A stretch of 64,000 nucleotides of DNA from Arthrobacter sp. C2. Its GTDB lineage: Bacteria > Actinomycetota > Actinomycetes > Actinomycetales > Micrococcaceae. Within the stretch, counting starts at the first letter, position 1; every line of letters begins with the position of its first letter. A model generated the notes under the pieces. The model saw nothing but the letters and a program-made list of their open reading frames with translations. It was not told where the DNA came from and ran no database searches. A program made the position numbers and the translations under genes. Below, one piece after another: positions 4,190-30,153 of this stretch. The stretch spans positions 1,426,001-1,490,000 of the forward strand of contig CP042428.1 in NCBI GenBank assembly GCA_024207135.1. Reading direction: 5' to 3'.

Positions 4190-4263
<74 letters not shown>

Positions 4264-4513: not shown

Positions 4514-4587
<74 letters not shown>

Positions 4588-26405: not shown

Positions 26406-26466
26406 TCGACAGTGATTCAATGTCAGGTACCCCCTTTACTTTTTGATTGCTAAGGACATCCCCCTT

Positions 26467-27459
26467 TTGATCACAGTCACTGACCTGCGCAAGGTCTACC
26501 AGCAGGGCGACCGCACCGTCGTCGCCCTGGATGGAGTCTCCTTGCACGTCGATGCCGGCCAAATCCACGGCATCATCGGCCACTCCGGCGCCGGCAAGTC
26601 AACACTTGTCCGTTGCCTGACCTTGCTTGACCGCCCGACCTCCGGGTCCGTTGCCGTGAACAACCAGGAACTGGCCAATGTCTCCGACTCCGACCTGCGC
26701 ACCGCACGCCGGCGCATCGGCATGGTCTTCCAGCATGCCAACCTGATGGATTCGCGCACCACCGCGCAGAACGTGGCCTTCCCGCTGGAACTCATCGGCA
26801 CCCCCAAGGCCAAGATCGCCGAAAAGGTCAATGCCCTGCTGGAACTGGTTGGACTGACCCAGTTCGCCGACGCGTACCCGGCCCAGCTTTCCGGAGGGCA
26901 GCGCCAGCGCGTCGGCATCGCCCGCGCCCTGTCCTCGGATCCCGACGTGCTGCTGTGCGACGAACCCACCAGCGCGCTGGATCCCAAGACCACCGACGAG
27001 ATCCTTGCGCTCATCAAGTCCGTGCGTGACCGGCTGAACCTCACGGTGCTGATCATCACCCACGAAATGAACGTCGTGAAGCAGGCCTGCGATTCGGTCT
27101 CGCTGCTCGAAGCCGGACGGATCGTCGAACACGGTGCCATCGCCACGGTCGTCGCCGACCCGGCCAGGCGCCTCTCCCAGGCGCTGCTGCCGATGCCCGG
27201 CAAGCTTCCGGCGGATCTTCCCGCCGGCGTCGTGCTGGATCTGCTCTACTCCGGTTCCCAGGCCACCGAGCCGGTGATCTCCTCGATTGCCCGCACCTTC
27301 AACGTGGACGTGAACGTGCTTGCCGGTTCCGTCGAGAACCTCGGGGCACACCAGTTTGCGCACCTGCGCATCCAGCTGCCCGAGGGCTCGGACATCACCG
27401 CCATCACCAACCACCTGCTCGCCAACGGTGTTGCCGTGACGCCCAAGGAGGCCAAGTAG
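26467..27459 (+). CDS. metN: Methionine ABC transporter ATP-binding protein MetN
   Basis: A protein of 330 residues. ABC ATPase motifs: Walker A GHSGAGKST, Q-loop MVFQHANLM, signature LSGGQRQRVGIARAL, Walker B VLLCDEPTSALD and switch His IITHEMN. The C-terminal about 90 residues form the NIL domain, the methionine-sensing domain specific to MetN. It drives import of D/L-methionine with MetI and MetQ, encoded immediately downstream. TTG at 26467 is chosen as the start because AAGGA lies ten bases before it and the protein then begins ITVTDLRKVYQ as in homologues; an in-frame TTG at 26443 is a weaker alternative. Confidence 0.92.
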   Translation: MITVTDLRKVYQQGDRTVVALDGVSLHVDAGQIHGIIGHSGAGKSTLVRCLTLLDRPTSGSVAVNNQELANVSDSDLRTARRRIGMVFQHANLMDSRTTAQNVAFPLELIGTPKAKIAEKVNALLELVGLTQFADAYPAQLSGGQRQRVGIARALSSDPDVLLCDEPTSALDPKTTDEILALIKSVRDRLNLTVLIITHEMNVVKQACDSVSLLEAGRIVEHGAIATVVADPARRLSQALLPMPGKLPADLPAGVVLDLLYSGSQATEPVISSIARTFNVDVNVLAGSVENLGAHQFAHLRIQLPEGSDITAITNHLLANGVAVTPKEAK

Positions 27460-27462
27460 TCC

Positions 27463-28143
27463 ATGGACTTCTTCAACGATCTTGTCACCAACCCCGGCAT
27501 CACCAAGGCCATGTGGCCGGCGTTCATCGAAACCATGCAGATGGTGGCCATCGCCGGTGTCTTCACCGTGATCATCGGCCTGCCGCTGGGGATCCTGCTG
27601 CTGAACACCTCGCAGGACGGGCTGACCCCCAACAAGCCGCTCAACGTGGTGCTCTCCGGAATCATCGTCAACATCACCCGGTCGATCCCGTTTGCCATCC
27701 TGATGGTTTCGCTGATCCCGTTTGCCAAGCTCATTGTCGGCGTTTCACTGGGTCCGGTGGCCGCCTCGGTCTCGCTGACCATCGGCACCATCCCGTTCTT
27801 CGCCCGCCTGGTGGAAACCGCGCTGCGCGAGGTCTCCGGCGGGAAGATCGATGCGGCCCTGGTCATGGGATCGACCAAGATGCAGGTCATCCGCAAGGTC
27901 CTGGTTCCCGAAGCCATGCCCGGCATTGTTGCGGCGGGCACCACGACGCTGGTGACCCTGATCGGGTACTCGGCGATGGCCGGCCTGGTCGGCGGTGGCG
28001 GGCTGGGACGCTTGGCCTACAACTACGGCTTCCAGCGCTACGAACCGGCGATCATGGTGGTCACCATCGTGATCATGGTGGTCATGGTCCAGCTGGTCCA
28101 GGTCATTGGCGATCGCATCGCCCGCGTGGTGGATCACCGCTAG
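27463..28143 (+). CDS. metI: Methionine ABC transporter permease MetI
   Basis: A protein of 226 residues with five hydrophobic helices. The ABC permease EAA-type loop is present as ALREVSGGKIDAALVMGSTKM, and a C-terminal GLVGGGGLGRLAYNYGFQRY matches MetI. It starts 3 bases after metN. It forms the homodimeric membrane channel that MetN energises and that receives methionine from either of the two MetQ lipoproteins. Residue count and helix arrangement are normal for MetI. Confidence 0.93.
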   Translation: MDFFNDLVTNPGITKAMWPAFIETMQMVAIAGVFTVIIGLPLGILLLNTSQDGLTPNKPLNVVLSGIIVNITRSIPFAILMVSLIPFAKLIVGVSLGPVAASVSLTIGTIPFFARLVETALREVSGGKIDAALVMGSTKMQVIRKVLVPEAMPGIVAAGTTTLVTLIGYSAMAGLVGGGGLGRLAYNYGFQRYEPAIMVVTIVIMVVMVQLVQVIGDRIARVVDHR

Positions 28144-28172
28144 CCCCCGGCGCACGATCCGCCCACAGCATT

Positions 28173-28242
28173 CCGACGGCCCGGTCCGTCGGGGCGCAGC
28201 CAGTAGCCGCTAGCTGCGTGAGATCGCCGGCAGCACGCCGGC
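28173..28242 (+). promoter_or_regulatory. Three-hairpin structured leader before metQ copy 1
   Basis: The metI-metQ gap folds into three consecutive hairpins. A: CCGACGG/CCGTCGG, 28173-28192. B: CGCAGC/GCTGCG, 28195-28218, with TAGCCGCT in its 12-base loop. C: GCCGGC/GCCGGC, 28226-28242. An AAAAGGA ribosome binding site follows. The same three elements in the same order precede metQ copy 2. Confidence 0.6.
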
Positions 28243-28265
28243 ACCAACGAAAAGGAACGCAGCTC

Positions 28266-29120
28266 ATGCGCAGGAAACTCGCACTTGCCCTCACCGGCGT
28301 CGCCACCCTGTTCGCCCTGACCGCCTGTGGCGGCAATGCCGGCGCACCGGCCGCCAGCACCGCGGAAACCGGCAATGCTTCCGGCTTGACCGTGGTCAAG
28401 GTCGGCGCCAGCCCGGTCCCGCATGCCCGGATCCTCGAGTACATCGATGAGAACCTGGCCGCGAAGGCCGGCATCGACCTGGACATCACAGAGATCGACG
28501 ACTACCAGACCCCGAACCTTGCCCTCAGCGACAAGTCGATCGACGCCAACTTCTTCCAGCACGTCCCGTTCTTCGACGAGCAGGTCGCATCGAAGGGCTA
28601 CGAGCTGGAGCACGGCACCGGAATCCTGCTTGAACCGCTCACCGCATTCTCCAAGAAGTATGCGGAGGCTTCCGCCGTCGAGGACGGTGCAACGGTGGTG
28701 CTCATGAACGATCCGTCCAACCAGGTGCGCGGCCTGCGTGTGCTTGAGGGAGCAGGGTTGCTCTCCGGAATCGTCGACGGCGACTCCGCGCTCAGCGTTG
28801 AGTCCGATGCCGCGAAGAACCCCAAGGGACTGAAGTTCCAGGAGGTCAACGCGGAGCAGGTCCCCAAGTTCTACCAGGAAGACCCGAACATCGGCCTCGC
28901 CATCGTCAACGGCAACTACATCGTCCAGGCCAAGCTGAACAAGGACGAAGCCCTCGCGGTTGAGCCCGTCAAGGACAACCCGAATGCCAACATCCTGGCC
29001 TGGCGTGCAGGCGAGAAGACCGAGGGCGTGACCAAGCTCGATGAGCTGTTGCACTCCGATGAGGTTCGCGACTACATCGAGACCACGTGGCCGGAGGGCG
29101 ACGTCATCCCGGCCTTCTAG
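28266..29120 (+). CDS. metQ: Methionine-binding lipoprotein MetQ, copy 1
   Basis: A protein of 284 residues of the NlpA/MetQ family. A signal peptide (RRKLALALTGVATLFALTAC) ends in a lipobox whose Cys is lipidated, so the protein is anchored outside the membrane. The substrate-binding domain has VVKVGASPVPHARILEYI, an ANFFQHVPFFDEQ region and NGNYIVQAKLN, all typical. AAAAGGA precedes the ATG. It is about 70-75 percent identical by eye to the next gene, so this is a tandem duplication. Differences cluster in the ligand-side segment (HVPFFDEQVASKGYELE here, TEAYLADQVKTKGYKFE there), which leaves room for altered affinity. Confidence 0.93.
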   Translation: MRRKLALALTGVATLFALTACGGNAGAPAASTAETGNASGLTVVKVGASPVPHARILEYIDENLAAKAGIDLDITEIDDYQTPNLALSDKSIDANFFQHVPFFDEQVASKGYELEHGTGILLEPLTAFSKKYAEASAVEDGATVVLMNDPSNQVRGLRVLEGAGLLSGIVDGDSALSVESDAAKNPKGLKFQEVNAEQVPKFYQEDPNIGLAIVNGNYIVQAKLNKDEALAVEPVKDNPNANILAWRAGEKTEGVTKLDELLHSDEVRDYIETTWPEGDVIPAF

Positions 29121-29198
29121 GCGTTCCGCGCCACCTCGCACCAAGCACCGCCCGCTTGGGCAAAACCACGTACCACCCCCCGTAATCCCCGATGGTTT

Positions 29199-29276
29199 TC
29201 GACGGCTCACCCTCGTCGACGCGCAGCTGGTAGCCGCTTCGCTGCGTTGGTTACCCGGTGTCCATCCACACCGGGT
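29199..29276 (+). promoter_or_regulatory. Three-hairpin structured leader before metQ copy 2
   Basis: Hairpins: A, TCGACG/CGTCGA (29199-29219); B, CGCAGC/GCTGCG (29222-29246) with TAGCCGCT in its 13-base loop; C, ACCCGGTG/CACCGGGT (29253-29276). The A and C stems keep pairing although their bases differ from leader 1, a covariation pattern, whereas stem B and its loop octamer are conserved in sequence. Confidence 0.6.
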
Positions 29277-29301
29277 CTTGATGAAAAGGAAACGCATCGC
29301 T

Positions 29302-30153
29302 ATGCGTAAGAAACTCGCACTTGCCCTCACCGGCGTTGCCACCCTGTTCGCGCTGACGGCCTGCGGCGGCGGCACCGCCGCTGCCCCCAGCGCATCGCAG
29401 AGCGGCGACAGCGCCGCACCGATCGTTGTCAAGGTTGGTGCGAGCCCGATCCCGCACGCCCAGATCCTCGAGTACATCGATGCCAACCTGGCTGCAAAGG
29501 CCGGCATCGACCTGGACATCACCGAGATCGAGGACTACCAGACCCCGAACATCGCGCTTGCCGACAAGACCCTGGATGCAAACTTCTTCCAGACCGAGGC
29601 CTACCTGGCAGACCAGGTGAAGACCAAGGGCTATAAGTTCGAGCACGGCGCAGGCGTCCACGTCGAGCCGCTGACCGCGTTCTCCAAGCAGTTCAAGGAC
29701 GTCGCCTCGGTGACCGAAGGCGCCACCGTGTTGCTGAACAACGACCCGGTGAACCAGCTGCGCGGCCTGCGCGTACTGGAAACCGCAGGCCTGCTCAGCG
29801 GCCTGGCCGATGACGATTCGGCCCTGACGATTCAGGACGACGCCGCCAAGAACCCCAAGAAGCTGAAGTTCCAGGAAGTGAACTCGGAGCAGGTTCCCAA
29901 GTTCTACCAGGAAGACCCGAAGATCGGACTTGCGATCGTCAACGGCAACTACATCGTGGCTGCCAAGCTGAACACCGACGAGATCATCGCCCAGGAAGAC
30001 GCGGTCAACAACCCCAACGCCAACTTCCTGACCTGGCGCGAGGGCGAGAAGACCGACGGCATCGCCAAGCTCGACGAGCTGCTGCACTCCGACGAGGTCC
30101 GCGAATACATCAAGAGCACCTGGACCGACGGCAGCGTACTTCCGGCCTTCTAG
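29302..30153 (+). CDS. metQ: Methionine-binding lipoprotein MetQ, copy 2
   Basis: A protein of 283 residues, a tandem paralogue of the preceding gene, with the same lipobox (ALTACGGG), MetQ core (VVKVGASPIPHAQILEYID) and C-terminal TWTDGSVLPAF. AAAAGGAAA precedes the ATG. It is the last gene of the met operon before a strong terminator. Two receptors sharing one MetNI transporter could bind methionine isomers or sulfoxides with different affinity; that is inference. The duplicated unit includes the leader hairpins, so the duplication spanned at least one leader plus one gene. Confidence 0.93.
   Translation: MRKKLALALTGVATLFALTACGGGTAAAPSASQSGDSAAPIVVKVGASPIPHAQILEYIDANLAAKAGIDLDITEIEDYQTPNIALADKTLDANFFQTEAYLADQVKTKGYKFEHGAGVHVEPLTAFSKQFKDVASVTEGATVLLNNDPVNQLRGLRVLETAGLLSGLADDDSALTIQDDAAKNPKKLKFQEVNSEQVPKFYQEDPKIGLAIVNGNYIVAAKLNTDEIIAQEDAVNNPNANFLTWREGEKTDGIAKLDELLHSDEVREYIKSTWTDGSVLPAF

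Follow-up and report, generated by a model that had tools for sequence, protein, structure and literature searches.

Two RNA classes, SAM-I and SAM-IV (SAM = S-adenosylmethionine), are structured leaders of methionine-related genes. In RNAs targeted by ANTAR proteins, two stem-loops carry hexanucleotide loops with A at position 1 and G at position 4, according to one report (PMC8164766). For ATP-binding cassette (ABC) importers it 'remains unclear' how more binding protein than translocator is made (PMC9045158). This study concerns the methionine uptake operon metN-metI-metQ1-metQ2 on the + strand of a 64-kb window (the whole stretch of DNA analysed, G000:C1:1426001-1490000; positions below are window positions unless stated otherwise), in a host genome that is Paeniglutamicibacter-like as judged by its closest named relatives and a genus search. 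Between metI (or metQ1) and metQ, the intergenic gap holds a metQ-specific RNA element of the order 5'-A-B-C-Shine-Dalgarno-D-metQ, in which A to D are hairpins; it occurs in eight Micrococcaceae genera and is missing from others. It is judged to be a new, orphan cis-regulatory RNA family that is ordinary in kind and unusual in its gene-specific, near-invariant hairpin B.

Hairpins of the metQ leaders and the constancy of B

Folding predicts hairpins A, B, and C in identical order in both leaders, and the stems quoted in the first-pass annotation are all present. Leader 1 (28144-28265) begins after the metI stop and contains hairpin A with the core CCGACGG/CCGTCGG (28172-28179/28186-28193), hairpin B (28194-28219) with the loop TAGCCG at 28204-28209 and a C.A mismatch within its stem, and hairpin C, GCCGGC/GCCGGC (28226-28231/28237-28242). 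Leader 2, within the metQ1-metQ2 gap (29121-29301), contains A as TCGACGG/TCGTCGA (29199-29205/29213-29219), B at 29221-29247 with the loop TAGCCG at 29231-29236, and C as ACCCGGTGT/ACACCGGGT (29253-29261/29268-29276). All lie on the + strand. Hairpin C of leader 1 was assigned by folding, both A hairpins and the second C by folding and by covariation in a genus alignment, B of leader 1 by folding and comparison (a common 22-mer spans 28196-28217), and B of leader 2 by folding and a covariance model. Hairpin B had been described at first pass as almost unchanged between the copies, with a shared loop octamer. The copies are indeed near-identical, except that the second has one additional base on the 3' side, and the octamer TAGCCGCT does occur twice (28204-28211 and 29231-29238, with no third site in the window), except that its last two bases belong to the stem. 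The octamer alone proves nothing, because at least two matches arise in 26 of 100 shuffles and about one is expected per window. Folding energy is likewise unremarkable for either leader (z = -1.43 and -1.52 for leaders 1 and 2), and since the fold z and octamer count of single leaders are uninformative, the case rests on relatives.

MetQ orthologs were drawn from 15 genus genomes and 295 family genomes, and 60 more upstream regions were fetched. The 96 oriented ortholog leaders read first stop short of 21 weaker family matches (E 1e-79 to 1e-51) and of those weaker still. Hairpin B, flanked by A and C, stands ahead of metQ in 62 of these 96 Micrococcaceae orthologs and in 8 of 16 genera (g1, g8, g10, g11, g21, g30, g31, and g32). 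Twelve leaders added later, which brought the number of distinct leaders to 71, were chosen via a covariance-model match, and the resulting figure of 74 leaders with B out of 108 is therefore enriched. One 22-mer is common to 44 of the 71 distinct leaders, and the loop UAGCCG is found in 69. Among the 21 leaders of genus g32, identity averages 1.00 in the B core as against 0.61 in A and 0.62 in C, which align poorly even within that genus; the values for A, B core, and C are 0.64, 0.98, and 0.67 in g8 and 0.67, 0.94, and 0.69 in g1. Where the B stem does vary (g30, one g21 leader, and g31), both sides are altered and the loop is unchanged.

An imperfect pair near the B loop is kept in 70 of the 71 distinct leaders. 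In 59 it is the fixed-pair mismatch (the sole flaw in 55), in 4 the mismatch has moved one pair down and the original position has turned Watson-Crick, in 5 the flaw is a U.G pair, and in 2 an additional base; only the G196 leader is fully paired at the usual mismatch place. Taken together, the sequence comparisons show A and C kept as helices of free sequence and B kept nearly letter for letter.

Structural tests, hairpin D, and the link to metQ

The structure was assessed in relatives with shuffle controls instead of the covariation program R-scape that the first-pass annotation had proposed, and the outcome favoured structure. In 59 distinct leaders, the mean dinucleotide-shuffle z was -1.8 for A, -2.5 for B, and -2.0 for C, with values below zero in 48, 59, and 59 leaders, respectively. 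In an alignment of B (49 distinct rows), 95.9% of cells are paired and 4 of 8 pairs are compensated on both sides, in 30 cells; none of 500 shuffles matched the covariation score, the number of compensated cells, or the share of paired cells, and 4 of 500 matched the pair count. The genus alignment (18 leaders, 17 distinct, with the divergent row L032 excluded) has 90.8% of cells paired and 8 of 25 pairs compensated in 15 cells, none of these values being reached in 500 shuffles. These covariation shuffles do not preserve relatedness and do not amount to a full R-scape test; sliding the structure along the genus alignment, a control that does preserve relatedness, lowers pairing to 31.7-49.0%. 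The compensated pairs of the genus alignment comprise three in A, five in C, and none in B, which is nearly invariant in the genus. The A and C stems drift in sequence and yet stay paired. RNAalifold on the family-wide alignment recovers B alone, because A and C are unalignable across genera. Swapping arms between leaders weakens pairing from -16.1 to -8.1 in A and from -15.5 to -9.0 in C, a test biased by arms that were picked by folding their own sequence. Compensatory changes beyond chance among relatives, a mark of structured cis-regulatory RNAs, are thus found against shuffle controls, and the earlier proposal of selection on RNA structure in place of leftover duplication is borne out by structure and covariation in the relatives.

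The annotated three-hairpin leader, correct for A, B, and C, had overlooked a fourth hairpin, D, a short RCGCA/TGCGT-type hairpin around the start codon in most B-bearing leaders. Folding and pattern search place it, together with the Shine-Dalgarno sequence, at 28250..28271 in leader 1 (AAAAGGA, then CGCA/TGCG) and at 29284..29307 in leader 2 (AAAAGGAA, then ACGCAT/ATGCGT), both on the + strand. Pairing of D is predicted above 0.5 in 59 of the 74 B-bearing leaders and in 3 of the 26 that lack B, a comparison that leaves out 8 rows of g4, g9, and g15, whose starts are not comparable. In leader 1, D is weakly predicted (0.13). The pattern AAGGA-N(6-12)-ATGCG occurs at 72 places on both strands of the genome (32 for a reversed control pattern), and at 3 of the 72 the gap also holds CGCA, namely, at the two metQ starts and at the ATG of an unidentified 115-residue frame. 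The Shine-Dalgarno sequence is unpaired with a mean of 0.54, exceeding 0.5 in 40 of 71 leaders.

One of the three B-less leaders with D is that of G048, in which B is cut by an insertion. In this leader (L123; G048:C57, 1-338), a transposase end, IS630-like by eye, abuts the 3' half of B; A and the 5' half of B are gone, and C and D are kept, i.e., a natural disruption of the leader by insertion.

The B covariance model (R1) was run on 290 family genomes from 32 genera with 24 candidates scored in each, and on the genomes of the order with 20 in each, a depth at which weak sites can be missed. Among the 78 best family matches (E up to 0.0025), 72 sit 42-65 nucleotides upstream of metQ on the same strand, and all 69 with E up to 2.4e-4 are metQ leaders; the six others (G244, G182, G201, G197, G206, and G187) all overlap open reading frames, the last spanning the end of its frame. 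A further 53 family matches have E values of 0.004-0.05, compared to about 15 predicted by the (rough) E-values. Nine of these 53 were inspected: two are metQ-linked (G196 and a decayed copy in G006) and seven overlap open reading frames. In the order search (347 genomes), 13 genomes had a match at E up to 0.002, consisting of 10 Micrococcaceae and 3 others (G354, G554, and G406; E 7e-4 to 1e-3), and these three all overlap open reading frames. The host genome has one weak model match, at genome position 2038035, opposite an open reading frame that, by eye, resembles ribonuclease (RNase) H; scanning the other strand against Pfam gave no match. A pattern search gave three matches at three mismatches, and the one inspected looks coding by eye. 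The consistent link to one gene that is expected of a structured cis-regulatory RNA is therefore seen in 72 of 78 matches, and at this sensitivity B belongs to a single gene in a single family.

In a MetQ tree built from 54 of the 108 rows, the B label has to change six times, and well-supported branches force at least four of these changes. The simplest reading, short of proof, is an old element with several losses. The metQ1-type and metQ2-type genes of Paeniglutamicibacter form separate tree groups, each keeping its own leader, and the metQ2 group includes Glutamicibacter rows. In Glutamicibacter (g23) leaders upstream of metQ, e.g., L060 and L064, A is kept and GCCGTGG...CACGGC stands in place of B. 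Near the Shine-Dalgarno sequence lies another CACGGC, which could pair with the same 5' strand; all three pieces are present in 9 of 18 leaders, and the arrangement looks like two mutually exclusive pairings. Duplicates of metQ are decaying in some species: a broken second metQ lies downstream of an intact one in L172 (G009) and L171 (G006), and the decayed second copy in G006 has an altered leader with the loop TGGCCG and no ATG.

As for the operon itself, the first gene, metN (26443..27459), encodes an ATPase with ABC_tran and NIL domains (Pfam PF00005, PF09383); its start codon is uncertain, and its best NCBIfam match, TIGR02314 MetN, scores under the curated cut-off. The permease gene metI (27463..28143) matches NF008049 MetI over the cut-off, and metQ1 (28266..29120) and metQ2 (29302..30153) encode NlpA/MetQ lipoproteins (Pfam PF03180); all four genes lie on the + strand. 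The four two-copy relatives L020, L021, L022, and L023 have a long hairpin of 12 to 18 pairs, which differs in sequence, after metQ1 and another hairpin ahead of A of metQ2. The metQ1-metQ2 gap in the window is shorter and has neither.

Possible modes of action

We tentatively favour an intercistronic mRNA element specific to metQ, which would uncouple the output of MetQ from that of MetNI and in which a partner, probably a protein, would recognise hairpin B by its sequence. Uncoupling is suggested by the position between the permease and binding-protein genes; the leader would act after transcription to separate the two outputs. This position also fits the first-pass suggestion that the leader may raise MetQ expression relative to MetNI. 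Cleavage or protection of the metNIQ transcript would probably take place near A. On the 5' side of A, 55 of 71 leaders have a U-rich TTC(C/G) stretch versus 28.8 in shuffles, the motif having been picked after looking, and mycobacterial RNase E cleaves 5' of cytidines according to one study (PMC10641625); enrichment of the stretch and this cleavage preference together make processing near A plausible. An additional hairpin between the upstream stop and A, expected if the upstream product is protected, is common in the genus (mean z -2.5, with 14 of 18 below -1). Around the ribosome-binding site, the helices of A and C may serve as barriers and spacers, and B would be a stem-loop recognised by its sequence, for which a trans-acting RNA-binding protein or a ribonuclease is the likeliest partner. 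A protein is preferred over a ligand because B is one hairpin with a loop of six bases and a single imperfect pair, features better matched to protein recognition than to a ligand pocket. Hairpin D might then couple the binding of B to translation initiation. A bolder version, which we regard with some doubt, is a new class of gene-specific mRNA switch in which the fixed 22-nucleotide hairpin with its UAGCCG loop and mismatch, set between free-sequence helices, would be read by a protein or a methionine-related ligand, control the opening of D, and so set MetQ output apart from MetNI within one operon.

Several observations weigh against this account. Hairpin B is missing in 34 of 96 metQ orthologs and is thus dispensable. 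Hairpin A is weak (z >= 0) in 11 of 59 leaders, including leader 1 of the window (z = +0.7). Shared descent confounds the association of D with B, and D followed by the Shine-Dalgarno complement is terminator-like on the minus strand (29292-29307 and 28257-28271). The number of pair types is raised neither in the B alignment (reached in 207 of 500 shuffles) nor in the genus alignment (479 of 500), and in the latter column pair 12-27 of A is broken in 3 of 17 rows and 71-85 of C in 7 of 17. Regarding processing near A, the hairpin upstream of A was not seen in the two leaders of the window (z -0.8 and -0.7), a hairpin pair in the esxB 5' untranslated region of M. smegmatis conferred no stability in one report (PMC11728522), and an invariant B sequence is unneeded for passive stabilisation.

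Among the alternatives, a riboswitch is unlikely and remains a serious rival. A new aptamer class for methionine, SAM, or another small molecule would control metQ translation, with D or the region from C to the Shine-Dalgarno sequence as its expression platform; the class would be new because there is no Rfam match. The methionine-pathway gene, the strong sequence constraint on B, and the start codon held in D agree with such a switch. The Shine-Dalgarno sequence is not consistently hidden, the conserved letters lie mostly within one simple hairpin, inspection by eye (no systematic search was made) showed no conserved junction or pseudoknot, and no strong B match stands ahead of any other gene. 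Pairing of the B 3' arm with ACGCA fits some Paeniglutamicibacter leaders and fails in genera with GCTGCAC. A switch via this arm and the ACGCA beside the Shine-Dalgarno sequence was dropped because those genera do not fit, and a B loop-C loop pairing, seen by eye in genus g21 alone, was also dropped. The earlier idea that the leader senses methionine or SAM fared poorly on the concentration of conserved letters in one hairpin, the lack of strong matches at other genes, and the recognised SAM-I and SAM-IV RNAs elsewhere in the genome.

Passive selective RNA processing and stabilisation (SRPS), which is similarly improbable, would have the U-rich linker cut and plain hairpins protect the metQ mRNA, raising the binding protein over the translocator, with B kept for an RNase or by slow drift. 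Its precedents are SRPS itself (PMC4423207) and programmed decay in E. coli (PMC5927463), and the intercistronic place, the TTC motif, and the additional hairpin before A in many Paeniglutamicibacter leaders all accord with it. A general stabiliser leaves unexplained why conservation of B is far above that of A and C and why strong matches occur at one gene, and both the absence of the additional hairpin from the leaders of the window and the esxB example count against it as well.

It is quite improbable that B acts instead as DNA, namely, as the operator of an internal metQ promoter to which a dimeric transcription factor binds. Single-locus regulation is common among operators, and B forms an imperfect 22-bp dyad. 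Of the 71 leaders, 69 keep the asymmetric centre TAGCCG, and the half-sites change in matched pairs, which is the reverse of what an operator predicts; the flanking A and C are conserved as structures, and no sigma-70-like promoter was found in 28100-29320, where actinobacterial promoters may escape detection. Even less probable is a transcription attenuator or internal terminator. The hairpins do sit between genes, and clostridial ABC transporter ratios are set, according to one study (PMC9045158), by internal terminators, which lie downstream of the binding-protein gene, whereas the metQ leaders lie upstream. A U-tract between B and the start occurs in only 3 of 71 leaders and TTTT within 14 nucleotides past B in 4, and no intrinsic terminator-like site was found on the + strand of 28100-29320. 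It is scarcely credible that the leaders are remnants of a duplication or are conserved for coding (a leader peptide). Each of the two stands ahead of a duplicated gene and has an open metQ frame, yet the leader also stands ahead of single-copy metQ in other genera, which refutes leftover duplication. Against a leader peptide, the additional base in B of L019 and L022 breaks the frame, and, by eye, the codons GTA GCC are no less fixed at their third positions than elsewhere, while adjacent codons vary in amino acid.

The leaders form an RNA family with good support, located at a gene for methionine uptake in non-model soil actinobacteria. A near-fixed element exactly between the translocator and binding-protein genes makes the question of the binding protein:translocator ratio directly testable. 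The eight genera with the element, the genera without it, and the one insertion-disrupted copy offer natural comparisons, and the B sequence is a ready bait for finding its partner.

Comparison with known systems

The first-pass annotation recognised no known riboswitch class, and this agrees with Rfam 15, which at gathering thresholds matched two tRNAs in the window and neither leader; at relaxed limits over 28000-29400 it gave three chance-level matches (best E 2.1). The two tRNA genes (4190-4263 and 4514-4587, minus strand) score an identical 65.3 bits and lie 324 bases apart. No description of a metQ leader RNA of this kind was found in the literature searched, whose coverage was partial and is not proof of absence. 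In its hexaloop and imperfect stem, B may resemble the iron-responsive element.

The metQ leaders share with SAM-I and SAM-IV RNAs their place ahead of methionine-related genes, and both classes are present in the host genome, with seven RF00162 matches (six over the cut-off) and five RF00634 matches. They differ in that neither model matches at the metQ leaders or anywhere inside genome positions 1426001-1490000. Four of the seven SAM-I matches cluster in about 13 kb (G000:C1:3346206-3359534), which suggests an island of methionine or sulfur genes beyond the window. ANTAR-target RNAs are likewise protein-bound hexaloop stem-loops, which have been reported in Arthrobacter and linked to the substrate-binding components of ABC transporters (PMC8164766). 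They require two A1/G4 hexaloops, and none of the 71 metQ leaders has even one in the minimum-energy folds of its A, B, and C segments.

Two further systems are closer in what they are thought to achieve. The internal terminators of ABC importers (PMC9045158) are RNA hairpins thought to tune binding protein against translocator, as is proposed for the metQ leaders; they terminate transcription from a place downstream of the binding-protein gene, in contrast to the upstream leaders described here, which mostly lack U-tracts. Lastly, SRPS also involves stem-loops between operon genes that possibly set unequal subunit amounts of one complex (PMC4423207). Its stem-loops are described there by folding energy and occur at many sites, whereas B is near-fixed in sequence and has its strong matches at a single gene.

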